64,000 nucleotides of DNA from Akkermansiaceae bacterium. Lineage in GTDB: Bacteria; Verrucomicrobiota; Verrucomicrobiia; Verrucomicrobiales; Akkermansiaceae. The position numbers were made by a program, and so were the translations under genes. Numbering within the stretch: the stretch's first letter is position 1; every line of letters begins with the position of its first letter. The notes below the pieces were generated by a model that did not search any database, had not been told where the DNA came from, and was given only the letters and a program-made list of their open reading frames with translations. Shown here in pieces: positions 7,531-47,762 of this stretch. The stretch spans positions 1 to 64,000 of the forward strand of contig JAPKCM010000003.1 of the NCBI GenBank assembly GCA_028822935.1, read 5' to 3'.

Positions 7531-8286
7531 TTATAGGTCAGACCTTGTCCCTGGGATTGAACACCAGTTAGACGGCAAAGTCTCATTTAAAATTCGACGG
7601 GTAAAAGTCCGCTCCGCTTTCGTAATCCGGTCAAAAAACAGCACCCGCTCCACGCCAAGATCCTTGAAACAGCGACGATGATCGAGCCAAACGCCCCATT
7701 TGACGACTTTTAGGATCAGAGTGAACTGCCCTCGCCAGATCCGCCTCGACCATGGTGACCACGAAGCCATCCACGAATTAAAAAAGGCGGCATGAAAGCC
7801 CAAGTGTCCAATTTCATCCTTAAGGATCCGAGCACAGGATTTCTCGATCACGGGATCCCCCGAGAATCGCCTCAAGAGATCGTAATAAGCTTCCGCAATA
7901 ATCTCGGCAGTCAAAAATATCTGTAGATGGAATTCAATGTTGATTAGTTTTCGCCCCCAGCGGAAGAGGTCTGCGCTCCACTGCTTGCTCAAAAGATCTC
8001 CATCCAGACGCGCCACCATGCCTGCCAGCATACGCGCGTGACGGTGCTCTTCGTTTAGAAAAAGACGGAGAGCTTCGGGGTATCGCTCATAACCAGGAGT
8101 CGCCCCCACCTTTTCTGCATAGCGAAAAAGAGTCGATCCTTCGCCCGACTCTCCGAGTTGAAATATCGCTAGGCTAGCGGCGAGAGTGTGTCTGATGGAG
8201 GGATCGAGCGTCACCGGCGCGGACCAATCCAAGACCTCTTCATCTGAGTTTTTCCGAAAGCGCTCGATCCAGAGTTCAATCTTCAT
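7531..8286 (-). CDS. Ferritin-like di-iron family protein
   Basis: 251 residues from the ATG at 8286. Two helical metal-binding motifs are visible, EEHRHARML (ExxH type) and DEIGHLGFH (ExxH type), plus Glu in LTAEIIAEAYYDLL between them, as in ferritin-like carboxylate di-iron proteins. The substrate is unknown; storage-type, oxygenase-like and hydroxylase-like members share this fold. The start overlaps the ispH stop (ATGA), so the two are translationally coupled. The last residues (GTRSDL) come from a short sequence, GGGACAAGGTCTGACC, that also abuts the broken downstream gene, hinting that the native C terminus may have been altered. Confidence 0.75.
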   Translation of the reverse strand: MKIELWIERFRKNSDEEVLDWSAPVTLDPSIRHTLAASLAIFQLGESGEGSTLFRYAEKVGATPGYERYPEALRLFLNEEHRHARMLAGMVARLDGDLLSKQWSADLFRWGRKLINIEFHLQIFLTAEIIAEAYYDLLRRFSGDPVIEKSCARILKDEIGHLGFHAAFFNSWMASWSPWSRRIWRGQFTLILKVVKWGVWLDHRRCFKDLGVERVLFFDRITKAERTFTRRILNETLPSNWCSIPGTRSDL

Positions 8287-9233
8287 TTGACAGCCTTCCC
8301 CCCAAGATCTTCGAGCTTCCCGATCACCTTCTTGACACACCCCATCAGGGTCGAGGTCCCCGCAGTAACGCCTACCCGGGACATTCCCTCCAGCCAGCGC
8401 GGGTCAATCTCCTCTGCGGAAGCAATCCGCCGGGCAATACATCCCAACGCTTTTGCCGTCTCGGCAAGCTGGCGGGAGTTGTTTGAGTTCTCTCCCCCGA
8501 CAACCAGGACTAGGTCCACTTTCCGGGCAAGATCGTGGAGAGCTCGCTGTCGGTTTTTCGTCGGCTGACAAACGGTGTCGCGGAATCGGACTTCGCTCTC
8601 GGGATGATGCTTCTTAAGCAAATCAACAAGTTCACGAACACGGGCAATGGGCTGAGTCGTCTGAGAAACGACCCCAAAGCATTTCTGTTGGGGAAGCGCG
8701 ATGATATCATCGACGGATCGAACGACCCGGGCATCGGGAAAGTCCCCGATCAATCCGAGGACTTCAACATGATCCGCCTGCCCAATGACGACTGGAAATC
8801 CCCCCTCCGCCACGAGTGTCGCCAGAGCGGTATGCGCCTTCTTTACTAAGGGGCAAGTGGCATCGCGAACAAGATGGCCTTTTTGCTCCCAGCGCTCTTT
8901 TTGCTGATTGGAAGCTCCATGCGCCGTGATGAGGACCTCGGATGTCGATGCCTGCTCACCAAAGAGTTGCCCCTCCTTAGCTCCTGCTTTTCGGAGACTT
9001 TCACGAACCACCTCATTGTGAACGAGCTGTCCCAGAATGGTAACATTCCCCCCCTTCGCCAATCTTTCAGCAAGGTCAACCGCATCTCGAACCCCGAAGC
9101 ACATCCCCCAATGGTCCGCGAGGTGAACTTCGAAGGATTTTTCGCTTTGTCCAACAAAGTCATTTGGTAAAAAAATTGAACTTTCCGAAGAGAAGGCGGT
9201 CACCGTCGATTGCTGAATATTACTTTGCATCAC
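8283..9233 (-). CDS. ispH: 4-hydroxy-3-methylbut-2-enyl diphosphate reductase (LytB)
   Basis: 316 residues. The last enzyme of the MEP isoprenoid pathway, reducing HMBPP to IPP and DMAPP with a [4Fe-4S] cluster. The three cluster cysteines are at MCFGV, DATCPLV and DTVCQPT, with conserved LVHNEVV, TAHGAS, GENSNNS and TAGTSTL segments. The N-terminal 30 or so residues are extra relative to the core and may be partly untranslated. It heads an operon with the ferritin-like gene. Confidence 0.95.
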   Translation of the reverse strand: MMQSNIQQSTVTAFSSESSIFLPNDFVGQSEKSFEVHLADHWGMCFGVRDAVDLAERLAKGGNVTILGQLVHNEVVRESLRKAGAKEGQLFGEQASTSEVLITAHGASNQQKERWEQKGHLVRDATCPLVKKAHTALATLVAEGGFPVVIGQADHVEVLGLIGDFPDARVVRSVDDIIALPQQKCFGVVSQTTQPIARVRELVDLLKKHHPESEVRFRDTVCQPTKNRQRALHDLARKVDLVLVVGGENSNNSRQLAETAKALGCIARRIASAEEIDPRWLEGMSRVGVTAGTSTLMGCVKKVIGKLEDLGGKAVK

Positions 9234-29546: not shown

Positions 29547-31376
29547 GTGGGAAGAATTCCGGAAGAAACGATCCAACAGGTGCTCGCCGCAGCTGATATT
29601 GTCGACATCATCAACTCCTACGTTCCCCTCAAACGAATGGGCTCCGCTTATAAAGCGAATTGCCCCTTTCACAACGAAAAAACCCCATCTTTCAACGTCA
29701 ATACCTCTTGGCAAAACTTCAAATGCTTCGGCTGTCAGGAATCCGGAAATGCCATCGGTTTCATCATGAAATACGAGAACATCCCCTTCGTAGATGCCGT
29801 CCGAAAGCTCGCCCAGAGAGTTGGCGTCCCGATCACCGAAGAACAATCCAGCCCCGAAGAGGACCGCAAACGCCGAAAAATTTCCCGCTACAAGGAGATC
29901 AACAATATTGCTGCCCGTTATTACCACAAGGTCCTCCTCAAGTCGCCCGACGCCCAGCACGCCCGCGACTACATGAAATCTCGCGGCTTCACCAAGGAAA
30001 CTGCCGAGAAATGGCTCATCGGCTACGCCCCTCGCAATTCGAATGAATTCCTAGCCCTCGTGAAGGAAAAGGGGTTCAACGGCCGCGAGTTTATCAATGC
30101 CGGCCTCGGTGGCTTGAGCAAGGAAAACAATCCGGGCGCCGGGCTCTACAATAAGTTCTACGACCAATTAATGTTCCCCATCCTAAACCACTACGGCGAC
30201 GTCGTTGGATTCAGTGCACGCATTCTTCGTAAAGACGACAAGCGAGGGAAATACATCAACACCAACGAAACCCCCATTTTCAAAAAATCGGACATTCTCT
30301 TCGGTCTCGATAAAGCAACCAAGGCCATGGGCAAAGCCAAGTGCGCCATTCTCTGCGAGGGACAAAGCGATATTATCGCCATGCATGAAGCGGGCTTCGA
30401 AAACACCGTCGGCGGACTCGGCACCGCCTTCACCGAACAACACGCCGCCAAGCTCAAACGTTACACTGATAAAGTTGTCCTCTGTTACGATGGCGACTCT
30501 GCCGGTCACAAAGCCACGGATAAGGCTTTCGCTCACCTCGCCAAGCTCGGCCTCGCCGTCAACCGCATCAATCTTCCGGATGGCGATGACCCCGACACCT
30601 TTCTCAAGACCCACGGTGTCGAAAAATTCCAGGAACTCATTGAAAACTCGAAGGACTTCTTCGAAGCCAAACTCGACAAAGAGCTCCCCACCACAAACCT
30701 CTCCTCGCCCAACGACCGCGCCGCTTTCCTCCAGGGCCTCGGAGAACTCGTCAGCATCATCAGTGATGATCTTATAAGGGACGCCACCATCCAAACCCTA
30801 TCCACCCGCCTCCGACTAGGAGCCGATGAATTTCGCAAGGTCGTTGCCTCCTCTAAAAAGAAAGCCGAGTTCCAAAGTAAACGGCAAAACCGATACAAGG
30901 ACGCCGAAGAGCAGCCCGTCTTTATCGAACCCTCGCCGATGGACTCCTCCATCGCCTACCTCTGTCATCTCGCGCTCGCATCCCGAGAGGTTGCTGACTC
31001 CCTTTGTGAACAACTCGAAGCTCTTCACGAGGCTCTCGATCAGACCGCAGGAGGGAACCTGTTAAGAAAGATCCTCTCCCGCCGCCCCGAATCCGACTCC
31101 CCCGCCGCCCGAAATGCTTTCCTCACCACTTTTAGCGAAGGCGACCAACTAGCTCTAGAGAAGGGATTTAGCCAAGATCTCCCCGACGACCTTCAAAAAG
31201 CCTGCTCGGAGACGATGACCTTGCTCCTGGCCACTCATTTTCAGAGAAAAGAAGCCTCTCTACGAGCGCAGCTGGGCGATCCAAACCTCCCTCGCGAGGA
31301 GATCATGACCCTTCTCCAAGAGATCAAAGACCTCCAAGAGTTCTTAAGTAACCTCAATTCCCGCTTTATAAGATGA
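29547..31376 (+). CDS. dnaG: DNA primase
   Basis: 609 residues from the GTG at 29547, which gives the family N terminus GRIPEETIQQVLAAADIVDIINSYV; the TTG at 29520 would add nine unconserved residues. The CHC2 zinc finger is CPFHNEKTPSF...CFGC, the TOPRIM domain has AILCEGQSDIIAMHEAG and VVLCYDGDSAGHKA. It makes RNA primers at the replication fork. rpoD follows in the same direction about 120 bp later, the classical macromolecular-synthesis order, here with rpsU absent. Confidence 0.95.
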   Translation: MGRIPEETIQQVLAAADIVDIINSYVPLKRMGSAYKANCPFHNEKTPSFNVNTSWQNFKCFGCQESGNAIGFIMKYENIPFVDAVRKLAQRVGVPITEEQSSPEEDRKRRKISRYKEINNIAARYYHKVLLKSPDAQHARDYMKSRGFTKETAEKWLIGYAPRNSNEFLALVKEKGFNGREFINAGLGGLSKENNPGAGLYNKFYDQLMFPILNHYGDVVGFSARILRKDDKRGKYINTNETPIFKKSDILFGLDKATKAMGKAKCAILCEGQSDIIAMHEAGFENTVGGLGTAFTEQHAAKLKRYTDKVVLCYDGDSAGHKATDKAFAHLAKLGLAVNRINLPDGDDPDTFLKTHGVEKFQELIENSKDFFEAKLDKELPTTNLSSPNDRAAFLQGLGELVSIISDDLIRDATIQTLSTRLRLGADEFRKVVASSKKKAEFQSKRQNRYKDAEEQPVFIEPSPMDSSIAYLCHLALASREVADSLCEQLEALHEALDQTAGGNLLRKILSRRPESDSPAARNAFLTTFSEGDQLALEKGFSQDLPDDLQKACSETMTLLLATHFQRKEASLRAQLGDPNLPREEIMTLLQEIKDLQEFLSNLNSRFIR

Positions 31377-31429
31377 GGAATTGAGGGGGAAAATACTTGA
31401 CCCTAATCCGATCCTCCCAAACATACGCG

Positions 31430-31459
31430 TTCAGGCAAGACCGCTTGCTTGATTATACT
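31430..31459 (+). promoter_or_regulatory. Candidate rpoD promoter
   Basis: A TATACT hexamer at 31454-31459 lies 40 bp before the rpoD start codon. The -35 region about 17 bp upstream (TTCAGG/TCAGGC) is a poor match, so the call is tentative. Confidence 0.25.
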
Positions 31460-31499
31460 AGGTGAAGTGTGTCCACACCTTCCTCACTCCTCTTTTATT

Positions 31500-33335
31500 A
31501 TGGCGAAAAAGAAAACCGCAGCGAAGAAAGCAGCTCCTCAGACGAAAGCCCCCGCTAAGAAAGCTCCCGCTAAGAAAGCCCCCGCTAAGAAAGCTCCCGC
31601 TAAGAAAGCTCCCGCTAAGAAAGCTCCCGCTAAGAAAGCAGCACCCACGAAAAAGGCCGCTCCCAAAAAAGAATCTCCCAAAGCTGAAGCTTCTATTGAA
31701 GAGAACGCAGATGGATCCATTGTCATCGATGGCAAGAAATACAAGAATCGTATCGATACTCCTGAGATTCAGGAAAAGATCCGGGAACTGATCAAGCTCG
31801 CCAAGGAACAGGACTACCTGACCTACGATGACATCCACGAGATCCTCCCCAACAACATCGTCAACCCGGCAGACGTCGACGCTATTCTCGATCGTCTCCG
31901 CCAGATGGAGTTCGACATTATCGATGCCTCCGAGGTTGATCGTTACAAGGATAAGAAAAAAGGCGATCTCGATGGCGAAGAAGAGACCAAGGACCAGAAA
32001 CTCGATATTCTCGATGACCCCGTCCGCATGTATCTCAAGCAGATGGGCCAGGTTCCCCTCCTCACCCGTGAGCAGGAAGTTGAAATCTCCAAGCGCATCG
32101 AGGACGCGGAAATCGAAGTTCAGAAATACCTCCACCTCTTCGGCTTCACCGCCAGTGGCTACCTCGCCCTCGCTGACAAGCTCATGCGGGGTAAGGAACG
32201 TTTTGACCGCGTCATTCTCGATAAAAAGATCGAGTCCCGTGAGCGCTACATGAAAGCCCTCCCGAAACACTGCGAGCAAGTCCGCATCTTACACGAAGAG
32301 ACGACACAGGTTTGCAAAAAGCTTTCCGCCAAAACAGTGCGCGGAAAGAAGAAGCTCGAGACTTCTCTCGAAAAAAACCTTGAGTCCATTGCCAAGCTTT
32401 ATGGCAAGTTCTTCTTCAAGCAAAAGGTCATCGAAGACTTCTGCGATGTCGTCGATGACTACCAGCAGAAGATCTGGAAATACGACCGCAAGAAAACCGA
32501 AGAAGCCGAAACCGCCATCAAGGAACTTCAGCTCGAAGCCTGGCACGACACCGAAAGCTTTGAGGCTACCAATAAAAATCTCCACATCTGGATCGCCAAG
32601 GCTCGCAAGGCTAAAGATGAAATGGTCGAGGCCAACCTTCGTCTCGTCATCTCCATCGCCAAGAAATACACCAACCGTGGCCTCTCGTTCCTCGACCTGA
32701 TTCAGGAAGGAAACATGGGCCTCATGAAGGCCGTTGAGAAATTTGAGTATCGTCGCGGATACAAGTTTTCAACCTACGCCACCTGGTGGATTCGTCAGGC
32801 CATCACTCGCTCGATTGCGGATCAGGCTCGCACCATTCGTATCCCGGTCCACATGATCGAGACGATCAACAAGCTCATGCGCGTGCAGAAGCAACTTGTT
32901 CAGGAATATGGACGCGAACCGACCCCTGATGAAATCGCCGAGGAGATTCACCTCCCCGTCGAGCGTGTCCGCGCCGTCCTTAAGATGGCCCAGCAGCCCA
33001 TCTCCCTTCAGGCTCCCGTGGGAGACTCTGATGACACTTCCTTTGGTGACTTCATCGAAGATAAGGCCGCAGAGAACCCCATGGAAGAAGCTGGCTTCGC
33101 CATGCTCAAGGACAAGATCATCGAAGTCCTTGACACCCTTACCGAACGTGAGCGTGAAGTCCTCGAACAGCGCTTCGGCCTCAAGGATGGCTATTCTCGC
33201 ACCCTCGAAGAAGTAGGCCGCCAGTTCCAGGTCACCCGTGAGCGAATTCGTCAGATCGAAGCCAAAGCGCTTCGTAAGATGCGTCACCCGACCCGGATTC
33301 GGAAGCTCGAAGGCTTCATCGAACTTCCGATGTAA
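31500..33335 (+). CDS. rpoD: Primary sigma factor (sigma-70) with a lysine-rich histone-H1-like N terminus
   Basis: 611 residues from the ATG at 31500. Residues 1-60 are almost only Lys, Ala and Pro, including six KAPAK repeats. Region 1.1 ([25 protein letters not shown]), region 1.2 ([24 protein letters not shown]), a non-conserved insert, regions 2.1-2.4 ([37 protein letters not shown] and [17 protein letters not shown]), region 3 and region 4.2 ([20 protein letters not shown]) are all present. It is the housekeeping promoter-recognition subunit. The basic tail is unusual and could add unspecific DNA binding. Confidence 0.96.
31545..31634 (+). repeat. Six tandem 15-bp repeats inside rpoD
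   Basis: The unit AAAGCYCCCGCTAAG occurs six times head to tail without gaps, differing only at the Y. Each unit encodes KAPAK. The near-identity at the DNA level suggests recent expansion or ongoing homogenisation. Confidence 0.95.
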
Positions 33336-33444
33336 TACGAAGTTATTAGTTCTCAGTTTAAAGCACTGGGCTTCGCGATTAATCGCCGGAACCCGTTTTG
33401 CTTCCCGCTTGAAAACGTTGAACTTAAAACTTAAAACTTTCCTC

Positions 33445-33840
33445 ATGCAGCCCATCCAGCTCGAACAGGCCATCTCCGAGATCATCCAGAAGGAAACTCG
33501 CTTCGAGCCTAGTGCCTATTTTCTCGTCCGAGAAGCACTCGACTTTACGGTAGATCGACTCGCTACGGAAGACGGAGGAGAGAAGCGTCACGTGAGTGGC
33601 CCCGAGCTCCTCGAGGGGTTCCGCGAATTTACTCTAAAGGAATACGGCCCCATGTCCGCCACCCTCCTGGACGACTGGGGCCTTCAGAAATGCGAAGACG
33701 TCGGCCGCATTGTCTTCCTCTTCATCGAAAACGGAGTCTTCGGGAAACAGGACTCCGACACCATCGAGGATTTCTCAAACATCTACGAATTTGAAACCGC
33801 CTTCTCCGCCCCCTTCCTCCCGAAGAAGCAGGTTGGGTAA
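33445..33840 (+). CDS. PVC-restricted conserved protein (Minf_1886 / TIGR04138 type)
   Basis: 131 residues from the ATG at 33445. The sequence (AISEIIQKETRFEPSAYFLVREALD, HVSGPELLEGFREF, GRIVFLFIENGVF) matches what I remember of a small family restricted to Planctomycetes and Verrucomicrobia. The function is unknown. It follows rpoD by 110 bp in the same direction and is closed by a strong terminator. The assignment of the family name is from memory, not from a search. Confidence 0.75.
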   Translation: MQPIQLEQAISEIIQKETRFEPSAYFLVREALDFTVDRLATEDGGEKRHVSGPELLEGFREFTLKEYGPMSATLLDDWGLQKCEDVGRIVFLFIENGVFGKQDSDTIEDFSNIYEFETAFSAPFLPKKQVG

Positions 33841-33855
33841 GCAAACTCTTTTAAA

Positions 33856-33883
33856 GAGCGGAAAGCCTGAAAGCTTTCCGCTC
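33856..33883 (+). terminator. Strong hairpin after the Minf_1886-type gene
   Basis: GAGCGGAAAGC and GCTTTCCGCTC form a perfect 11-bp stem with a 6-base loop, followed by CTTGTT. It begins 15 bases after the stop codon and marks the left edge of the accessory region. Confidence 0.8.
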
Positions 33884-34060
33884 CTTGTTATCTGGCAGGC
33901 CATCAAGGAATGGGTCCCGGATGACGACCCGGATCTGAACTGGTTCAACTAGGAAAAAAACACTGGCAATGAGCCCGGGTGCTTCGACCAAAGCCCCGTC
34001 TGGCAGCCCAAAGAGATCCCGTTCGGCGCCGGCCGGGCTCTCGTCCTCTACGACAGCTGA
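33884..34060 (+). pseudogene. Possible gene remnant with one in-frame TAG
   Basis: One frame reads WQAIKEWVPDDDPDLNWFN, a TAG at 33950-33952, then GNEPGCFDQSPVWQPKEIPFG and on to a TGA at 34058-34060. The residue make-up on both sides of the TAG looks protein-like (Trp, Pro and acidic clusters), so this may be the tail of a lost gene. No start codon or family is recognised, and chance cannot be excluded. Confidence 0.3.
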
Positions 34061-34264
34061 CAGGTAAGAAGCTTGGTGACCTTAAAAACCGCTGGCGAAA
34101 AAGAACTTGGAAACGCGGGCTAGAAATCTACGCTCTCTTACAGTGAAGGTCGTGCTAAAATCTCCCAGTTCCAGTAAAATAGAGCGTGGATCAGGGACTT
34201 TTCCTGCCAAAATCTACACAACCGCCACACCAAACCACCGACTCCGCCCCTCTTTCCCCCGCAA

Positions 34265-34339
34265 CCCCCTTTCACGCCCCTCCGCTCCGGTCCAAAGGCG
34301 GCTTCAAAGCCCTCCCGCCAAAAGAAAATTCCTAGCAGT
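34265..34339 (+). repeat. 75-bp dispersed repeat, copy 1
   Basis: Aligns without gaps to the copies at 37025-37099 and 39540-39614. Shared blocks are CCCCTCCGCT, CCAAAGGCGG, CCCTCCC and AAATTCCTA. It ends 20 bp before the likely start of the glycerophosphodiesterase gene. Confidence 0.85.
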
Positions 34340-34358
34340 AGTAGCAAGACTCCATACG

Positions 34359-35204
34359 GTGACACTTCTCCTTTCGTGCTCCATGCTGGCAACCTCCGAG
34401 GGAAAAGCGGCTGAGCCCCGATTGATCAATTTCAATGATCCTGGAAACGTGGACGATCACAGGCCCATCATCGTCGCGCATCGAGGAGGCGTCGTTTCGG
34501 CGCAATCACACGAATGCTCCCTCACGGCGCTCCGTAGTGCTGGGGAAGCGGGCTATGACATGGTCGAGCTGGATATTCAAATGAGTAGCGATGGCGTTCC
34601 TATCGTCTTTCACGACCAAGATCTTACCAAAGCGTGTGGCAAGAGTGGCCGTATCGCGGACCACAACGCGACTGAACTTGAGGCGATCAGCTATCTGACG
34701 GGAGGCGATTCGATCATTCGACTGGAAACGGCGCTTAAGTCCTGTCGACATCTGGGACTAGGTGTGATGCTGGATTTGAAAGCCGGTCGGGATTCTCGTG
34801 AATTTCTCGATCAGGTTGACCAACTGCTGGTGAAACATGAGTTGGAAAACTCCACTATTTCGATCTCGGTGAGCGAGGCAGCACGGAAGTCCCTCAAGCA
34901 TGTCCGCTTTACCCCGTCCAACGATGAGATGCGACGCCTCCGTGCAGGAGCAAAGCTAGATCTCAGTTCCCGTTTCTGGTTCGGACTTCCCAAGCAGCTG
35001 CAGCCTGGAGATATCGGCAAATTGAAATCAGCCGGAGCTCTGATCATTCCTGCTATCAATACCTTTCGCTATCCAGAGAAGCATCACCTGAAGCTAGCGA
35101 GAAAGGATATCAAGAAACTGACAGAACAAGGCGTCGACGGCTTCCAGATTGACTCGATCTATTTCTCCTCTTTTTCAGAAATAAAGAAGACGCGGCCAGA
35201 ATAA
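34359..35204 (+). CDS. Secreted glycerophosphodiester phosphodiesterase family protein
   Basis: 281 residues from the GTG at 34359, which starts a short signal peptide (TLLLSCSMLATSEGKA). The open frame extends to 34107, but that part runs through repeat copy 1 and is Pro/Arg-rich, so it is unlikely to be translated. GDPD motifs are IIVAHRGG, VELDIQMSSDGVPIVFHDQDL and VMLDLKAG, with C-terminal GVDGFQIDSI. It should hydrolyse glycerophosphodiesters to glycerol-3-phosphate and an alcohol outside the cytoplasm. The Glu after HRGG lies in HECSL rather than the usual ENT. Confidence 0.85.
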   Translation: MTLLLSCSMLATSEGKAAEPRLINFNDPGNVDDHRPIIVAHRGGVVSAQSHECSLTALRSAGEAGYDMVELDIQMSSDGVPIVFHDQDLTKACGKSGRIADHNATELEAISYLTGGDSIIRLETALKSCRHLGLGVMLDLKAGRDSREFLDQVDQLLVKHELENSTISISVSEAARKSLKHVRFTPSNDEMRRLRAGAKLDLSSRFWFGLPKQLQPGDIGKLKSAGALIIPAINTFRYPEKHHLKLARKDIKKLTEQGVDGFQIDSIYFSSFSEIKKTRPE

Positions 35205-35714
35205 GACAGAGGCCAGTTGTTCTTAGGAAGAACACTCCAAAGAAGAACGCGCCAGACGATTTACAGGATCTGCGGTGATTGGATCAAAGAGTTTTGTCGA
35301 CGGCGTGTTTCAGGCGAGCCGGAAACGGTTTGGCCCGAAGCGGAAGGACGGCGCGAGTAAACCGTGAGGGGCCCTCGATGAAATGGCAGCGTTTATCCTC
35401 AGTTGTGGTGTATGCACCACGCCTTCGTCCCGCCTTGCCTTTTCAAGAAATCACTCCGGTATTCGTCTCTTTTGAAACACTACTTGGTATTACATGATCC
35501 AAATGAGGGGAAACATGATGGCGTGCCCCCGTTCTTTGAGCCAACTCTTATGAGATTTGGCTCAAAGAACGGGGGCACGCCAACCGCATACCAACCGATC
35601 GAATCAGCGAGGCCATGGCATTATTAAATTCACAGCCGAACAATCTCACCGAATTTCGCGCCTCTTCCTTGATTTTGGAAGTTCAATTTGCCAACCTAAC
35701 TTACCACATCCCCC
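35205..35714. other. Gene-free stretch with a long perfect inverted repeat
   Basis: No open frame here resembles a known protein; the longest (35279-35497, plus) has no recognised features. Besides the 26-bp inverted repeat at 35519-35582, a short dyad GTGGTG-TATG-CACCAC is visible near 35405-35420. Confidence 0.5.
35519..35582. repeat. Perfect 26-bp inverted repeat (hairpin)
   Basis: The left arm at 35519-35544 (begins TGGCGTGCCCCCG, ends GAGCCAA) and the right arm at 35557-35581/82 are exact complements, separated by a 12-base spacer, CTCTTATGAGAT. No T run follows on either strand, so an intrinsic terminator is not the best reading. The structure resembles a REP-type or small MITE-like element. 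No second copy was noticed in the window. Confidence 0.9.
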
Positions 35715-36776
35715 ATGATAAACCTCTTACATTTACTCATCGCCCTTGGAGTAACCACCTTGCAATGTGTTGCCGAAGTTGAAGTCTCCTTAGAAAATCA
35801 TACACGCCCTACACCGAATATTTCGAGGGAACCGATTATTAAAGAATTCAATTATCAGAAGGCTGTGCGTTTCACTGACAACGCTGCGATGGCATGGCAA
35901 AACTCCAGGAAATGCGTCACCTGCCACACCAATGGCTTGTATCTAGTTACACGACCTGCTGCGGGAACCAATTCTCCTGCTTACAAGGCAGCACGACTTT
36001 TCACACAAGATTATCTGCGCAAGAATATTGATCTATTGAACAAACCAAAAAAGAAACGCGGAATCGAAGGTATTGTCGCCTCCACTGCCTTCCTTGCAAT
36101 TAGTGACATCAAGACTAATCAGAAGCTTGGTGAGGTGACGAAGCAAGCGCTCGACTATGCGTGGTCAAAACAGGATAACTCTGGGGCCTGGGAAAGCTGG
36201 CTAAAATGCAACTGGGGACCTTACGAATCTGATAATCATTTCGGTGTCACCCTGGTGGCTCTTGCTGCTGGGATCGCTTCAGACGCTCCTTATTTCAAAA
36301 CAGTCAAGGCGCGTGAAGGTGTCCAAAAAATAAAAGCCTATCTCGCCAAGCATGCGCCGGAGTCTCTTCACCAGATGGGTATGATGCTCTGGGCTAACGC
36401 CCATTTCCCTGCACTCGCCAACAAAGATCAAATCACACAGTGGCGCGCATCTCTGTTAAAAGCACAAAAAAAAGACGGCGGCTGGGTGCTCATCGAACTT
36501 GGGAATGGTGCATGGAAACGCGAGGATAACAAACCACAGAGTAAGGAAACCGATGGTTATGCCACGGCTTTCGCTGTGCATGTTCTCACAGAATCCGGAG
36601 TTGGTCGCTCTGATCCACGCCTCGTCAAGGGCCGCCAGTGGCTCAAAGACCATCAACGCGAAAGTGGACGATGGTATACAAACTCACCGCGACGAGATAC
36701 AAAAAATTACATCTCTCATGCAGCCACAAACCTTGCTCTACCAGCTCTAGCGAAAGACAAAGAGCCCGCGAACTAG
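35715..36776 (+). CDS. Secreted protein with a haem-c motif and a terpene-cyclase-like alpha/alpha barrel
   Basis: 353 residues with a signal peptide (INLLHLLIALGVTTLQCVA). One CVTCH haem-binding motif at residues 67-71 lies in WQNSRKCVTCHTNG. The rest looks like the helical barrel of prenyltransferase/squalene-oxidase repeats: QDNSGAW, QKKDGGW and QRESGRW resemble QW motifs, and GIEGIVASTAFLAISD and HFGVTLVALAAG are typical helices. The DxDD motif of hopene cyclases is not seen, so cyclase activity is doubtful. Related proteins occur in planctomycetes beside redox genes. The function is unknown; export plus CxxCH suggests a c-type cytochrome-like role. Confidence 0.7.
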   Translation: MINLLHLLIALGVTTLQCVAEVEVSLENHTRPTPNISREPIIKEFNYQKAVRFTDNAAMAWQNSRKCVTCHTNGLYLVTRPAAGTNSPAYKAARLFTQDYLRKNIDLLNKPKKKRGIEGIVASTAFLAISDIKTNQKLGEVTKQALDYAWSKQDNSGAWESWLKCNWGPYESDNHFGVTLVALAAGIASDAPYFKTVKAREGVQKIKAYLAKHAPESLHQMGMMLWANAHFPALANKDQITQWRASLLKAQKKDGGWVLIELGNGAWKREDNKPQSKETDGYATAFAVHVLTESGVGRSDPRLVKGRQWLKDHQRESGRWYTNSPRRDTKNYISHAATNLALPALAKDKEPAN

Positions 36777-37024
36777 CCAGCTAACAACGAACTAAGTCAT
36801 ACCGCCTCCCTCATCAAAACGATTCAAAGTAGGCGTGCTCCTGGATTTCTGGTTATGTTTCTCGACTATTCGAAGGCTTTCTCGATTTCCAGCGCACAGG
36901 AGCAGCCATGGAGCTGTACTTTGACCAGCCGACGAGCGGAGATATACTATCCCATCGGCAAGGATTGAAACGAAGACGGCTTGCTCGTTTACCGATATAC
37001 CGAGAGCGAAGCAAAGGTGGTGCG
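36777..37024. other. Intergenic region before repeat copy 2
   Basis: Between the haem-motif protein gene and repeat copy 2 nothing convincing is seen. The minus-strand open frame over 36792-37067 runs through the repeat and lacks any recognised motif. Confidence 0.4.
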
Positions 37025-37099
37025 CCTCCGTTCTCCCCCCTCCGCTTCGTTCCAAAGGCGGGCTCAAGACCCTCCCACCAAAAGTAAATTCCTAACAGT
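37025..37099 (+). repeat. 75-bp dispersed repeat, copy 2
   Basis: Gap-free alignment with copies 1 and 3. The last base overlaps the stop codon of the nitric oxide synthase gene (37099-37101, minus strand), so the repeat abuts that gene exactly. Confidence 0.85.
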
Positions 37100-38181
37100 C
37101 AGTAAGGTGATTTCTGATAGAGAAAATTGGGAAGCTCCACTTTTAGCTCAAAGCTTTGCGAGAATATCGGGCTGGCCGCGCCAGATATCGGCGGCACTAG
37201 CCATGCCCAATCGCCCCTGACTTCGCGATTATTGCTGTTTTCTTTTTTACAAAAACTCACAAACTCAGAGCTCACCGTATGATGATCCACGATGCGGTAT
37301 CCCTCTTTTTTGAATGACCAGAGCACCGCTTCATTCAAAGCGATCAATGCGTGATCGATCCAATGACGTGATTTCTTGCTTGGTTCGATTCCCATTGCAG
37401 AGGCGATCTGAGGTAATTGGTTGTAACGATTTTTATCTGAGAAATTCCTCGCTGCGATCTCAGTAGATACGTAATACCCGCTAAAAGGTGCCGCAGGGTA
37501 GATCGCCTTCTCGGTAGCAAAAAGCATATCTGAAACTATTGGCGTGGCATACCAACGCAAGCCCAGGGCCTCTACCTTAGGGTGCTCCGGATGGCGAATG
37601 GCCACTTCCGCCACTGCCCCTGCGGGCAATGGGCGCAGGTGAAGCTTGCCTCCACATTGAAGTATAATGGGTAATATATCGAAACGCGTGCGCTGGCTAG
37701 GCGGCTGCCACCCTAAATCAATTGCAATTTGAGTAAGTTGGCAATTCGCAGGATCGCCCAAGACCGTGCCGTCTGCCGCGAGGTAGCCCGCATAGCTGAT
37801 CAGTTGGTGGTTCCATATCCTAATCTCGGGCTGAAGCGGGTCGAACTCAGGGAATACTGACATGAAGGGCTGCGCGGCACGGCTCTCGGTAGCGAGGCTG
37901 AGGAGTTCGAATAAAGCATCAAAGATCTCATCTGCGCTGGAAACACTTCTGCCATCAATCACTTTTAGCGAGCGCCACCGGGCTCGACCACTACAACGAA
38001 CGGAATTTCGCCATGCCTGCCGAGCCGCTTCCTCCAATCCGACCAAAAGACCCCGACTTTGCCCTAGAAGCTGATGAAGGTCAGATGCATCCCAGCGCTT
38101 TTCCACAGGTAGGCTTGGCCCCTCGGAGTCAATCGGTTGAGCAGAATAAGGGCAACTTGCTTTAGGGGTTTCAGGATTCAT
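37099..38181 (-). CDS. nos: Nitric oxide synthase oxygenase
   Basis: 360 residues, the usual length of bacterial NOS, and without a reductase domain. It should make NO and citrulline from arginine via N-hydroxyarginine with haem and a tetrahydropterin or folate, using borrowed flavodoxin-type electrons. The haem-ligand Cys63 is in VRCSGRARW with the stacking Trp after it; the substrate-binding Glu241 is in YYVSTEIAARN; NRYNQLPQIA follows; the pterin-side GDWAWLVPPISG (around Trp326) is present. A CPY near residue 10 does not form the animal zinc site. No pterin or reductase gene is adjacent. It sits between repeat copies 2 and 3, in a mosaic region, so horizontal acquisition is likely. Confidence 0.95.
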   Translation of the reverse strand: MNPETPKASCPYSAQPIDSEGPSLPVEKRWDASDLHQLLGQSRGLLVGLEEAARQAWRNSVRCSGRARWRSLKVIDGRSVSSADEIFDALFELLSLATESRAAQPFMSVFPEFDPLQPEIRIWNHQLISYAGYLAADGTVLGDPANCQLTQIAIDLGWQPPSQRTRFDILPIILQCGGKLHLRPLPAGAVAEVAIRHPEHPKVEALGLRWYATPIVSDMLFATEKAIYPAAPFSGYYVSTEIAARNFSDKNRYNQLPQIASAMGIEPSKKSRHWIDHALIALNEAVLWSFKKEGYRIVDHHTVSSEFVSFCKKENSNNREVRGDWAWLVPPISGAASPIFSQSFELKVELPNFLYQKSPY

Positions 38182-38210
38182 GCACGAGCTTTGATAATTC
38201 CTTTCCGATA

Positions 38211-38239
38211 AATATGCTAAACATTAGTTGTATGGTCAA
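38211..38239 (-). promoter_or_regulatory. Candidate promoter of the nitric oxide synthase gene with an internal dyad
   Basis: On the minus strand TTGACC (38239-38234) and CATATT (38216-38211) are separated by 17 bp, a good sigma-70 fit, about 30 bp before the start codon. The spacer next to the -10 contains CTAA-TGT-TTAG (38217-38227), a small dyad that could be an operator. The Shine-Dalgarno-like AAGGAA lies rather far from the ATG. Confidence 0.45.
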
Positions 38240-38273
38240 AAGATAGGAGATGATTCTCACGAGCTTCGCGCCT

Positions 38274-38966
38274 TCAGGATACGTAGGCATACTTCGCAAG
38301 GGTCTCGTCTTTGAGTTTCTCTACAACATCAAGGATCACCGGAAGCGGTATCAGGAACCACTCCCTCGGCTCCACGCCGTGACCGAAGCGGTCTTTCAGC
38401 TCAAGATCCAGCCGGGCATCTGCGAAGAACTTGTGTAGCAGGGTTTCCAGCTTCTTGGGGCTGATGTTGGCTAGCTTGAAGGTCCGGACGATCTCCACGT
38501 CCGCCAGCAGGTAGGTCGGGTCTTTCTTCGCATTCGCCACCCGCTTCTTCACGTCTCCACCTGTCACTCCAATCTTATGAATCACAGAGCGGTTCTCTGC
38601 GATGAACGGTTCATCCGAGAGGCTGCGCAGGATATCGATGTATGCAGCCACCAGATCTTGCTCGTCTTCCTCATCGGAAAACAACGGCCTGAACACATCG
38701 AAGTCCTCGCAGATGTCCCGCTTCGCCACTTCCTCCGCATTCATCCCTTCCAGAACCTTGCAGCACTTCGCCGAACCCCGTATCTGATCCAGCCTCTCGG
38801 CGTAGATTCTTTCGCAAACATCCTCTTCTTCCCCGTGCTCTTTGGTGAAACGCACGAACTCCGCGATGATGCGTTGCTCCTTCGCGCTGCGCTCGACCTT
38901 CTTCGCCGGGGTGATGTCCACCCCCAGCGTGGCCAGCATCTTTTCATCAGACTTATCTTTAGACAT
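38274..38966 (-). CDS. GIY-YIG family protein, shortened and with the GIY tyrosine replaced
   Basis: 230 residues. The C-terminal part is a GIY-YIG (T5orf172-like) domain: DILRSLSDEP, HKIGVTGGDVKKR, KLETLLHKFFADARLDLELKDRFG and PREWFLIPL. The N-terminal part (RIYAERLDQIRG, KRDICEDFDVFRPLF) matches the start of a common family whose members are near 400 residues. About 100 residues expected between FRPLF and the nuclease domain are absent. The first-motif Tyr (GTIYVLRS in relatives) aligns with Asp in YIDILRS, so nuclease activity may be lost. It lies upstream of nos, with 92 bp between them, on the same strand. Confidence 0.75.
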   Translation of the reverse strand: MSKDKSDEKMLATLGVDITPAKKVERSAKEQRIIAEFVRFTKEHGEEEDVCERIYAERLDQIRGSAKCCKVLEGMNAEEVAKRDICEDFDVFRPLFSDEEDEQDLVAAYIDILRSLSDEPFIAENRSVIHKIGVTGGDVKKRVANAKKDPTYLLADVEIVRTFKLANISPKKLETLLHKFFADARLDLELKDRFGHGVEPREWFLIPLPVILDVVEKLKDETLAKYAYVS

Positions 38967-39133
38967 TTTTCCCTCTCTTGCCAGACGTTGAAGAAAGACT
39001 ACACCCTACGCCATCTTTTTCTCCCATGGATCGGCAGAGCTGAGAGAAGGAGCACGATCTTTCTACCATTGGAACTCAATCGCCCTCTTCACCCACCAAC
39101 GCCCGCGCATCGTCCAAGGACAAACTTACTTTT

Positions 39134-39491
39134 CTAAAATATGCAAGGCATCGTCGCGTTACAAAGGTCGCGAACGTAGTGCAGGGTAGATGTTGCACAA
39201 GAGCGGGGAGAGACTCCCTCCTTGTGGGGTTCCTGCCTGCAGATGCTGGCGCACCCCGTCTTCCATGACTCCGGCTTTGGGCCATTTGGCCATTTGCCGG
39301 AGCAGTCCTTTGTCACTGATGAGGTGCTCGGTGAAGCGCAACATCCAGTCGTGGTCGATGGCATCGAAGCAACCACGGATATCGGCGTCGAGCACCCAGG
39401 TGACCCTCTTTTTCATGAGATCCAAGTAAAGGGCATCAAGGGCACGGTGCTGGATCTCTTTGAACACATGACGATGGCTGGTTAAAAACTG
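39134..39491 (-). pseudogene. Group II intron reverse transcriptase fragment (frameshifted)
   Basis: Minus-strand reading has ALDALYLDLMKKRVTWVLDADIRGCFDAIDHDW, then KAGVMEDG and GTPQGGSLSPLLCNIY, which are RT domains 2-4 of intron-encoded proteins. One extra C near 39184-39186 shifts the frame; correcting it gives NIYLHYVRDL, the normal continuation. The fragment stops before the YADD catalytic box, and the N-terminal third, maturase and endonuclease domains are missing. No intron RNA domain V was recognised next to it. This is a remnant of a retroelement. Confidence 0.85.
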
Positions 39492-39539
39492 CTAGTTTTT
39501 GGGCCTTCGTTTAATCGCTCGCGGTTCTCTTCAGAGCAC

Positions 39540-39614
39540 CCCCCTTTCTCCCCCCTCCGCTCAGGCCCAAAGGCGGCTTCAAGGCCCTCCCACCATAAGT
39601 AAATTCCTAGCACT
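39540..39614 (+). repeat. 75-bp dispersed repeat, copy 3
   Basis: Third gap-free copy of the repeat, 22 bp before the trpG stop codon and 48 bp after the reverse transcriptase remnant. It marks the right edge of the accessory region. Confidence 0.85.
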
Positions 39615-39636
39615 TAGGAAGTGCCCCTACTCGAAC

Positions 39637-40200
39637 CTAGATCTCCAGAAAATTCTTCAGCAGTTGTTTCCCTGAGTTGGTCAGGATCGACTCCGGGTGA
39701 AACTGCACCCCATGGACATTCAGCTCTTTGTGCTTGAGTCCCATAATGACGCCATCATCGGTCCAAGCGGTCACCTCAAGGCAATCCGGCAAGGTCTCCT
39801 TTTTGACAATCAAGGAGTGGTAGCGTGTCGCCTCGAAAGGATTATCGAGCCCTTTGAAAACACTCTTTCCTTCATGATAAATCATCGAAGTCTTACCGTG
39901 CATCAACTTCTCGGCACGAACCACTTCTCCCCCATAAACCTGACCGATCGACTGATGCCCTAGGCAAACTCCGAAGACCGGAAGACTTGCACCAAAGGCC
40001 TTGATCACCTCGCGGGAAATCCCCGCTTCATTCGGCGTGCACGGTCCCGGAGAGATGCAAATTCGTGAAGGATTTAGCTCCTTCAATTGCGCCACCGTCA
40101 CCGCATCATTGCGCAGCACTTTCATCTCCGCCCCCAACTCGCCAAAATACTGAACAAGATTGTAGGTGAAGGAATCATAGTTATCGATAACGACTAGCAT
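39637..40200 (-). CDS. trpG: Anthranilate synthase component II (glutamine amidotransferase)
   Basis: 187 residues, class I glutamine amidotransferase. Catalytic triad: Cys in [12 protein letters not shown], His and Glu in [10 protein letters not shown]; the oxyanion region is [12 protein letters not shown]. It supplies ammonia to TrpE. It may double as PabA for folate synthesis, as in many bacteria with one copy. Its start overlaps the trpE stop by 7 bases (ATGCTAG). Confidence 0.93.
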
Positions 40201-41705
40201 GGCTTCATGTCTGTGAGGGTTTTTGCCAAAGCCACCGCACGCATCATTGCGGCAGCTTTATTGAGGGTCTCGTTGTATTCGTAGGTTGGATTACTATCCG
40301 CAACCACTCCTGCACCGGCCTGGATGTAGACTTTACCGTCTTTCAAGAGGCAGGTCCTCAATGCGATGCAAGAGTCATGACTTCCGTCCCAGCCGAAGTA
40401 ACCGACCGCGCCGGAATAACTTCCCCGCTTATTCTTCTCCAACTCGTTGATGATTTGCATCGCCCGAATCTTAGGCGCTCCGCTCACGGTCCCCGCCGGG
40501 AAGGTCGAGCGTAGGACATCATAGGAGCTGAACTCAGGTGAAAGTTTTCCACTCACATTGGAAACAATGTGCATCACGTGGCTGTATCGCTCAACGATCA
40601 TCATATCATCGACCGACACGCTACCGTGCGTGGAGATTCTCCCGACGTCATTGCGAGCCAGATCAATCAGCATCACGTGCTCTGCGCATTCTTTTTCATC
40701 GGCCAAAAGCTCAGCCGCAAGCGCATCATCCTCTTCCGGGGTCTTCCCTCTCCATCGAGTCCCCGCGATAGGGCGGATATCAATCTTCCCGTTGATCGCA
40801 CGCACGTGAACTTCCGGGGAACTGCCCACAAGAGAGAAGTCCGGAGTTTCGTAAACGAACATATAAGGCGAAGGATTAATGTGACGCAGCGCCCGATAAA
40901 GATCGATGGGGCTCCCTTCAAAATCTGCTTCAAATCGCTGACTCGGGACCGCCTGAAACACATCACCCGCGGTGATGTATTCTTGGACACGTGTCACCAT
41001 CGTCTCATATTCTTCCTGCGTGGTATTGCTCCGAGGTGCCGGCGGCTCGATCTCCGCGAGACCATTCAGAGGAGAAACATGGAGAGGCCGGTCAAGAACG
41101 TCCATGAGCGTCGCGATCCGTCCGCGCGCTGCGTCGTAGGCTTCCAGATCGGTCTCGTGTTCGTTCAAAAGAGCATTCGAGACCACCAACAATCGGCGCA
41201 ACTTGTGATCGAAGATCACCATCGTATCCGCGAGAAAGAAAATCGACTCTGGCAGCCCTAAATCATCTTCGGGAGATTCGGTCACCGCGGGTTCAAACTG
41301 CGAAACCGCGTCGTAGCCGACATAGCCCACGGCTCCGCCGAAGAATGGAGGCGCATCACCATGAGTCACGGGTTTATAAGCAGACATCAGCCGCTCCACT
41401 TCATCGAGAACATCGCCCTCACGAGCCCGCTCTTCAACTTCCCCGTCACGAACGATCGTCACTTGGTCACCCATCGATCGAAAAACCCACTTCGGTTGGC
41501 TTCCCACGATGGACCATCGACCACTCGCATCCGTACTTTCCGCGCTTTCAAAAAGAAAGGCGTGTTTTCCATCCCGAAGTTTCAAAAAGGCGGAAACCGG
41601 AGTTTCAAAATCAGCGGCCAATTGAGCGTAGACGGGCACGACGTTTCCGGACTTTGCCAATTCAACAAACTCCTCCGCATCTGGTTTGACTGGAACCTCC
41701 TTCAC
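40194..41705 (-). CDS. trpE: Anthranilate synthase component I
   Basis: 503 residues from the GTG at 41705. The frame is open to 41861, but family similarity begins at [33 protein letters not shown], and a longer start would run into the divergent accD promoter. The chorismate-binding domain shows [47 protein letters not shown] and [12 protein letters not shown]. It makes anthranilate from chorismate; Trp feedback residues were not assessed. It forms a coupled operon with trpG, while trpF lies at 17882. Confidence 0.94.
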
Positions 41706-41847
41706 GTGGAACGCAGTCTGACGATCCCTCCTCTGCTGGCAATGCGAAAGAGCGGCCCTTGAGTGGCAATTTTCGAATTTTGCAAAGAAAATATTGCTGA
41801 GAAATTTCAGTTCATTTTTGGAGATTCCGGCATTAGTCTGTTTGGCA

Positions 41848-42684
41848 ATGGGCATCTTCAATAGACCACAACTGAAGCGTCAGACCAAAAATCGCGATAG
41901 CGTTCCTGATGATCTCTGGAACAAGTGTCCCGAGTGCGGAGAAATGATTCACACTCTCGACCTCAAGCAACACAATCTCGTCTGCCCTCATTGCTCACAC
42001 CATTTCATGATGGGTGCCTATGAGCGATTTAAGCTCCTCGCCGATGAAGAGAGCTTTGAAGAAACTGAGGCCAATCTTATTTCCACCAATCCTCTGGGGT
42101 TCGAAAACTACAAGGAAAAGACGGCCACGCTCAGAGAAAAGACCGGCCTAAAGGATGCCGTGGTCACCGGACGTTTCTCCATGAATGGCCACCCCTCCAT
42201 GGCAGCGGTGATGGACTTCAAATATTTTGCTGGCTCGATGGGCTCAGTCGTGGGTGAGAAAATCACGCGGGCCATCGAAACCGCAACCACTGAGAAACGA
42301 GCAATGCTCATATTTTCCTCATCATCGGGGGCCCGCATGCAGGAAGGCATGCTTTCCCTCATGCAGATGGCCAAAACCTGCGGCGCGCTTGCCCGCCATG
42401 GAGAAGCCAAGCTCCCTTACATTTCCATTTTCACCCACCCCACCACGGGAGGTGTGACTGCGTCGTTCGCCACCATCGGGGATATCAATCTAGCCGAACC
42501 AAAATGCATGATCGGCTTCGCCGGTCCTCGGGTGATCAAAGAGACGACCCATCAGGATCTTCCTCCAGGCTTCCAAACAGCCGAATTCATGTTGGATCAT
42601 GGCCTCGTCGACGCCATCGTGGCCCGTCGCGATTTGAAGCAACAGCTCAGCGATCTTCTGGATTATATGATGCCTCAATCATAG
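41848..42684 (+). CDS. accD: Acetyl-CoA carboxylase carboxyltransferase subunit beta
   Basis: 278 residues from the ATG at 41848 (MGIFNRPQLKR), the usual form; the open frame to 41794 is leader. N-terminal zinc ribbon CPECGEMIHTLDLKQHNLVCPHC, then the crotonase-like carboxyltransferase domain with SSSGARMQEGMLSLMQMAK, THPTTGGVTASFA and GFAGPRVIKET. It joins AccA to transfer carboxyl from biotin to acetyl-CoA in fatty acid synthesis. Its 3' end overlaps the converging transporter gene by 38 bp. Confidence 0.95.
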   Translation: MGIFNRPQLKRQTKNRDSVPDDLWNKCPECGEMIHTLDLKQHNLVCPHCSHHFMMGAYERFKLLADEESFEETEANLISTNPLGFENYKEKTATLREKTGLKDAVVTGRFSMNGHPSMAAVMDFKYFAGSMGSVVGEKITRAIETATTEKRAMLIFSSSSGARMQEGMLSLMQMAKTCGALARHGEAKLPYISIFTHPTTGGVTASFATIGDINLAEPKCMIGFAGPRVIKETTHQDLPPGFQTAEFMLDHGLVDAIVARRDLKQQLSDLLDYMMPQS

Positions 42685-43531
42685 AGAACCGCCTCCGCAC
42701 CAGTGGATAGAGCGAAATCGCGATGACAATGACAGAGGCCCCGACGTAAAAACCCGGGCCCAAATGCTGGTAGTCTCTTAAAATAAGGGCTGCCAAAAGG
42801 ATCCCATAAACCGGCTCCAGATTGTTCATGAAGTTGATCGTGAACACGCTGAAGCGCTTAAGAAGATTCACATACTCTGAAAAAGCCACCACCGTGCACA
42901 GTCCTCCGAGGAGAAATAAGTAAGCCCAATCCATGAAACTCGGCACGAGATCGAGTTCATGAACGAGAAAGGGTAAACTAATCGTGGCAAAGAGACACGC
43001 GCCCATCATTTCGTAGCAGGTGATCAGATAGGGCCCCGCCTTCTTAATGTGGAAGCTGTTGATCACGGAAAAAATGGACGCAAAAAAGGCCGAGAAAATC
43101 GCGATCAAAAATCCCGCGCTATATTCAGATTCGCTTTTGAAGATCATCGAAACTCCGATGATAACCACCGCTCCGAACACCAAATCAATCGGACGGAATC
43201 TTCTTCCCCGGACGATCATGGGTTCAAGAATGGCAGTCCAGAGCGAGAGGGTCGCCATCCCGACCATGCAAATCGAAACATTGGCCACCTTAACCGCGAG
43301 GAAAAAAGTCACCCAATGAGCTCCAATAACAAGCCCCGTCGCAGTAAAATTCAGGGCATCACGAAGGGGAATGCGAAGCTTGCGCCGAAGGATCAGGACT
43401 AGAATCACCGAAGCAATCGCGGTCCGAAAGACCACAATCTCCGGAGCAGGCAGCATGATCAAGGCGCCCAAGACGGCCGTAAATCCCCAGAGGATCACCA
43501 CACCCTGAAGTTTTAAATGGTCTCTGATCAC
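42647..43531 (-). CDS. DMT (EamA) family transporter
   Basis: 294 residues with ten hydrophobic helices in two EamA repeats (first around VVILWGFTAVLGALIMLPAPEIVVFRT, second around FSAFFASIFSVINSFHIKK). The substrate is unknown; relatives carry small metabolites outward. It is complete, in contrast to the shortened paralogue at 4949. It lies just beyond the rpoC terminator. Confidence 0.82.
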   Translation of the reverse strand: MIRDHLKLQGVVILWGFTAVLGALIMLPAPEIVVFRTAIASVILVLILRRKLRIPLRDALNFTATGLVIGAHWVTFFLAVKVANVSICMVGMATLSLWTAILEPMIVRGRRFRPIDLVFGAVVIIGVSMIFKSESEYSAGFLIAIFSAFFASIFSVINSFHIKKAGPYLITCYEMMGACLFATISLPFLVHELDLVPSFMDWAYLFLLGGLCTVVAFSEYVNLLKRFSVFTINFMNNLEPVYGILLAALILRDYQHLGPGFYVGASVIVIAISLYPLVRRRFSMIEASYNPEDR

Positions 43532-43561
43532 AGAAGTTTAATTTCTTGGGCCCGATAGAAA

Positions 43562-43594
43562 AAAGCCCCGGTCGCTTTCGCGAACCGGGGCTTT
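43562..43594 (-). terminator. rpoC operon terminator
   Basis: AAAGCCCCGGT and ACCGGGGCTTT form an 11-bp stem, followed on the minus strand by a run of six T. It lies 23 bases past the rpoC stop and insulates the ribosomal/RNA polymerase operon from the transporter gene. Confidence 0.9.
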
Positions 43595-43616
43595 GAAGTT
43601 TTTCTAAGCGTTCAGC

Positions 43617-47762
<4,146 letters not shown>

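Follow-up and report, generated by a model that had tools for sequence, protein, structure and literature searches.

The window, by which we mean the whole stretch of 64,000 nucleotides that was analysed, carries a gene that we read, with a probability of about 0.87, as an oxygenase-only bacterial nitric oxide synthase (NOS) whose active site is intact, which is predicted to convert arginine to NO and citrulline together with a separate reductase, and which belongs to a lineage (lineage A) with a replaced N-terminus. This reading is built on homology, a fold match, the catalytic residues, purifying selection, the distribution of the gene and an N-terminal signature. The gene is located as follows:

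37099..38181, minus strand: NOS oxygenase of 360 residues, with the ATG start at 38181 and the stop codon at 37099-37101

An earlier sequence-only reading had given these coordinates exactly and had omitted the strand; on the plus strand, the first frame over 37099-38181 is full of stops. The Pfam family PF02898 (NO_synthase) matches the protein with an E-value of 1.2e-113 and 380 bits (cut-off 22.7), residues 49-359 being aligned to positions 51-360 of the 362 profile positions. In a sequence search of the PDB the best matches are Bacillus subtilis NOS chains (first E-value 1.6e-88), which align from residue 47 or 48 to residue 360. The structure predicted from a 5-row alignment has a mean pLDDT of 60, which is modest, and the best 50 of the 428 matches that Foldseek retrieved with this model from the PDB are all NOS, with an E-value of 8.3e-28 for the top match and a TM-score of 0.70 to rat nNOS. 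The NCBIfam search gave no match at an E-value of 0.001. The resemblance of the open reading frame to NOS is far beyond chance, and by the sequence and fold tests, together with the conserved residues, the assignment as NOS oxygenase proposed in the earlier reading is well supported. That reading also held that the length equals that of bacterial NOS. This is correct as a number, but residues 1-48 match neither the family profile nor the usual N-terminus. Like the window protein, B. subtilis NOS (PDB 2amo, 2fc2) is oxygenase-only and has the same catalytic residues, but its alignment does not extend before residue 47 of the window protein and it has Ile218 and His343 in place of Val216 and Ser341, respectively.

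The residues expected to build the active site are the following:

37993..37995, minus strand: Cys63, the haem thiolate ligand by homology; Cys in 92/92 other rows of the alignment
37459..37461, minus strand: Glu241, the arginine-binding glutamate by homology; Glu in 92/92 other rows
37201..37209, minus strand: Trp325-Ala-Trp327, the pterin-site tryptophans by homology; both Trp in 92/92 other rows

In addition, Trp57 (the proximal Trp) and Arg66 are identical in all 92 other NOS rows, and Arg245 (the pterin-site Arg) is common to the window and 91 of them. Cys63, Glu241 and the motif GDWAWLVPP, all named in the sequence-only reading, are thus present in the translation; its Trp326 needs to be corrected, because the tryptophans of the motif are residues 325 and 327.

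NOS is not confined to this one verrucomicrobial genome: it was found in 18 of a sample of 387 genomes from the phylum Verrucomicrobiota, in 73 of 260 Akkermansiaceae genomes, and in 14 of the 27 genomes of the window's genus, so that it is frequent in the family. The earlier reading knew of no described verrucomicrobial NOS, and none was found among the matches listed in searches of the open-licence literature (one review mentions only a verrucomicrobial hydroxylamine oxidoreductase); a description elsewhere is possible. NOS biology is thereby extended to the Akkermansiaceae, a family for which no such description was found in the open-licence literature and which offers many genomes to compare. 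For the alignments and trees, duplicates (L001, L050, L061, L062), fragments (L018, L019) and incomplete rows (L014, L089) were dropped.

Lineage A, which includes the window, forms a clade of 27 rows with an SH-aLRT of 100 in a quick 93-row tree. A careful 52-row tree, built from the core only, unites the 15 rows sampled from lineage A with bootstrap/SH-aLRT values of 100/100 and joins the window with ANT-87 and L017 (98/90). The nearest named relative of the window NOS comes from the Akkermansiaceae MAG ANT-87 (JAPKDJ010000028.1, L020), which is placed in the window's genus and marks the host as verrucomicrobial. The two proteins are 83% identical and share the Cys-Pro N-terminal segment and the same Val; the ANT-87 protein differs in having 373 residues, other gene neighbours, and Ile after the haem Cys where the window has Ser. 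A second verrucomicrobial clade, lineage B, is supported with 99/96 without L004 and 77/85 with L004 in the careful tree. Its NOS (e.g. L051) resemble that of the window in the catalytic residues and in the host family, but L051 is only 43% identical to the window protein, the N-terminus is often short, and some of the genes lie beside a histidine kinase and a response regulator. A third set of rows from the family (L022, L026, L027, L035, L038) falls outside A and B in the quick tree. Lineage A is patchy in Akkermansiaceae and is also met in certain further families of its class; among the NOS-bearing genomes of the window's genus, 10 of 14 carry lineage A and 4 of 14 lineage B. The window gene is thus placed inside NOS, in a clade with intact catalytic residues, and its own catalytic residues are kept; therefore, neither of the two outcomes named in the sequence-only reading as speaking against it, loss of the haem Cys or Glu or a position outside NOS in an inactive clade, was found. 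Some verrucomicrobial NOS copies may be broken or misread, as L014, L024, L029, and L041 have an in-frame stop within the NOS profile match and L076 has a stop in the N-terminal part of the frame.

What distinguishes lineage A is the part of the protein before the core, which the sequence-only reading had overlooked:

38038..38181, minus strand: residues 1-48, the lineage A N-terminal segment replacing the usual NOS N-terminus (the Pfam match begins at residue 49; alignments)
38149..38154, minus strand: Cys10-Pro11, resembling a haem-regulatory motif

Canonical bacterial NOS of the Bacillus type have the usual N-terminal segment before the core, whereas the window has the unrelated segment of lineage A. 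In most named plasmid rows and IMG/VR rows the usual segment ends in a pattern like TGTYxHTxEEL, and segments of this type are absent from the lineage A rows in the alignments. Residues 1-45 have a pLDDT below 50 in the model from the 5-row alignment. In all 24 lineage A rows counted, the segment contains a Cys-Pro, located 36-68 residues upstream of the core. Besides Cys and Pro (24/24), a Trp (23/24) and the preceding Arg (20/24) are kept before the core boundary, the rest being variable; rows were cut relative to Cys-Pro for this alignment, so that its alignment, not its presence, was imposed. The Cys-Pro count over all rows was limited to 75 residues or the first Met (L093 and L097 have a Cys-Pro beyond this limit) and omitted L054, whose frame is cut by the contig end, L059, which has the Cys-Pro and a cut C-terminus, and L076, where the Cys-Pro lies upstream of the in-frame stop.

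Cys-Pro was the first haem-regulatory motif to be recognised, and the version in Irr reads Gly-Cys-Pro-Trp-His-Asp (PMC11442138). It is tentatively possible that the Cys-Pro of lineage A is such a motif, which would bind haem transiently, either for loading or for switching activity or stability by haem supply, and that tags of this kind were added to the N- or C-termini of several NOSs independently. The persistence of Cys-Pro in an otherwise variable segment would fit, and so would its appearance at the termini of further NOSs from several phyla. At the N-terminus, a Cys-Pro is carried by all 4 rows of a further verrucomicrobial clade and, going by the annotated start, by the Rhizobium and Micromonospora NOS; at the C-terminus, it occurs in the NOS of L003, Nostoc, Deinococcus, Rhodococcus, and a single IMG/VR contig. 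Because these positions differ, they cannot all be one inherited feature. Of 308 neighbouring open reading frames, found mechanically and used as controls, 20 have any Cys-Pro in the first 60 residues, 6 have Cys-Pro followed by F, Y, V, L, H, I, or W within the same range, and 3 have any Cys-Pro within the last 20 residues. The C-terminal extensions, whose limits were set after looking, contain five Cys-Pro in 332 residues if lineages A and B are left out (Poisson P 8e-7), and five in 880 residues if they are included (P 8e-5). However, lineage B has an N-terminal Cys-Pro in no more than 3 of its 42 rows, the C-terminal extension is free of Cys-Pro throughout lineages A and B (66 rows), and five other rows (L091, L092, L096, L098, L104) have none at either end within the count limits. 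The motif is also short, some N-terminal cases (L005, L035, L038, L099, L105) look less like a haem-regulatory motif, and the lineage A rows are related and not independent.

In Irr, as in the NOS motif, Cys-Pro is followed by an aromatic residue; Irr itself is not a NOS. The start of Escherichia coli KatG (...GKCPFHQGG) is similar as well. Homology of the N-terminus with KatG was considered and rejected, the profile of the lineage A segment scoring KatG below two shuffled controls. Because the profile fails to separate KatG from these controls, the likeness of the NOS Cys-Pro to haem-regulatory motifs is to be taken as a motif resemblance and no more. Among the literature matches listed, none joins bacterial NOS with haem-regulatory Cys-Pro motifs. 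The wider proposal, that lineage A NOS are haem-responsive, with the N-terminal Cys-Pro taking up haem ahead of, or in addition to, the catalytic haem, that bacterial NOSs acquired comparable tags several times, and that NO production would be tied to haem supply, is doubtful. The conserved Cys-Pro offers a cheap and direct test of haem control over a NOS.

Alternatively, the N-terminal Cys could stabilise the dimer through an inter-subunit disulfide or a metal site, and so replace the Cys-X4-Cys zinc site of animal NOS. The segment lies directly before the catalytic core, as does the zinc site in animal NOS. Bacterial NOS are described as being without the latter site (PMC9500659). A dimer-stabilising role is nevertheless unlikely, given that Cys-X4-Cys is absent from the segment in all 24 lineage A rows and that neither the kept Pro nor the C-terminal versions of Cys-Pro would be explained by it.

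The core of the window protein has some peculiarities of its own. At eight columns where at least 90% of the 92 other rows agree, the window differs; six of these are shared with the nearest relative, and Ser64 and Tyr360 are found in the window only. Ser64, directly after the haem Cys, replaces Ile. The segment SPIFSQ, which the earlier reading had contrasted with PVFHQ of relatives, is present, and its Ser341 stands in place of a His that is kept in 89 of 92 other rows. Another of the eight columns has Arg in the window versus Gly104. The window and ANT-87 also share a long stem (0.70 in the careful tree). Between their two NOS genes, dN is 0.089 and dS 0.549 by NG86 (dN/dS about 0.16), and 0.096 and 0.414 by YN00 (about 0.23). 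The differences are distributed as 39, 28, and 99 over codon positions 1, 2, and 3. These ratios and the bias in codon position show that the gene is under purifying selection. It is very unlikely that the protein is a NOS paralogue in decay, or put to another use, that no longer makes NO. The long stem, the eight deviations, and the stops within the frame of a few other verrucomicrobial NOS genes could be cited for this, but the catalytic residues are retained, dN/dS is low, and this is the single NOS match found in a genome that is 96% complete.

For the preferred reading of an active oxygenase, NO production, the cofactor and the electron donor are what we infer. By homology, Cys63 would ligate the haem, Glu241 would bind arginine, and a reduced pterin or folate would lie against Trp327; arginine would then be converted to NO and citrulline in two oxidation steps. 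In the Pfam scan the 360-residue chain has one domain, with no fused reductase or globin domain. The electrons must come from a separate reductase, the candidates being two diflavin reductases of the CysJ type whose genes lie elsewhere in the genome. The NOS of Synechococcus PCC 7335 (SyNOS) also contains a bacterial NOS oxygenase domain but has fused reductase and globin domains (PMC6104048, PMC12922734), and the window gene is without either.

In agreement with the sequence-only reading, no linked reductase or pterin gene was detected among the 37 open reading frames of the window scanned with Pfam for flavin reductase, ferredoxin, and pterin functions. The genome contains two flavodoxin-domain genes, both on contigs other than that of the window. 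They encode the two diflavin reductases, which are closest to CysJ and just below the CysJ cut-off. One of them scores above the threshold set for a family of sulfite reductase subunits, and given this match and the closeness to CysJ both may simply serve sulfite reduction. There is one gene for GTP cyclohydrolase I in the genome, on another contig, a candidate for supplying the cofactor, and no match to the type IB enzyme. GTP cyclohydrolase takes part in folate synthesis as well. Within the genus, 13 of the 14 genomes with NOS have type IA or IB. In the same genus, lineage A occurs with type IA in 9 of 10 genomes, and lineage B with type IB in 4 of 4 and with type IA in 0 of 4. As to NO sensing, H-NOX was considered as a sensor and dismissed for the window genome, which gave no match. 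Among the 27 genomes of the genus, the two are rarely combined: H-NOX is present in 1 of 14 NOS-bearing versus 9 of 13 NOS-lacking genomes (Fisher P 0.0013, kinship being ignored).

A further residue bears on the expected kinetics:

37534..37536, minus strand: Val216, near the haem pocket, aligned with Ile218 of the B. subtilis chain and with Val in eNOS

Bacterial NOS are said to have Ile where animal NOS have Val, and the Ile has been tied to slow NO release (PMC6104048, PMC9500659). Of 94 rows, L089 included, 45 have Val in this column, 29 Ile, 19 Leu, and 1 Met; among the 11 non-verrucomicrobial rows, Val occupies it in 5. For the sequences compared the rule fails, and since just 29 of 94 rows have Ile, it is not a defining feature of bacterial NOS. 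The Val in this column bears on whether slow NO release should be expected from bacterial NOS in general.

Upstream of the NOS gene and on the same strand lies the following neighbour:

38274..38966, minus strand: T5orf172/MUG113 (GIY-YIG-type) protein, by Pfam

Between NOS and trpG, at 39159-39467, lies part of a reverse transcriptase/maturase gene from a group II intron, the remnant of a mobile element. Both the GIY-YIG neighbour and the maturase fragment were considered as operon or cassette partners and rejected, since neither recurs in any of 40 other NOS loci used for comparison. Nor was any other gene of the window locus found to be conserved beside NOS in these 40 loci. The adjoining trpE-trpG pair is retained in relatives. 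When 13 window genes were tested in 8-16 kb stretches of 12 relatives, only trpE, trpG, and, in one relative, accD were found, and NOS was absent from these stretches around trpG. With the neighbours of NOS differing also between the window and ANT-87, we infer that NOS genes moved or were replaced within the family.

No Rfam match was obtained in 34000-41000, no tRNA in 30000-46000, and no PADLOC match for NOS and its two neighbours. Promoter-like matches in 36600-38500 number five versus 1.3 expected, judged by consensus only. Further away, 35715-36776 encodes a protein with a CxxCH haem-c motif and a weak squalene-cyclase-like similarity under the Pfam cut-off, and 7531-8340 gives a weak match to AurF (p-aminobenzoate N-oxygenase family; E-value 2.9e-4, under the cut-off).

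Other NOS loci have neighbours of their own. The lineage B genes of L051, L052, L062, L067, and L083 lie near a PAS/GAF histidine kinase and a NarL-type response regulator (domains checked in L051), and that of L084 near a response regulator only; a two-component system linked to NO is possible there. At eight lineage A loci (L063, L064, L070-L073, L075, L089) NOS is accompanied by a methyltransferase, an FAD oxidoreductase, and a type III polyketide synthase-like gene (domains checked in L064), which suggests that NOS lies near a biosynthetic cluster. On the IMG/VR contigs L104, L105, and L106 (124-165 kb), NOS adjoins a globin or globin-reductase (flavohaemoglobin-like) gene. On the Novosphingobium and Jannaschia plasmids (L096, L098) it overlaps an upstream radical SAM gene by a few bases.
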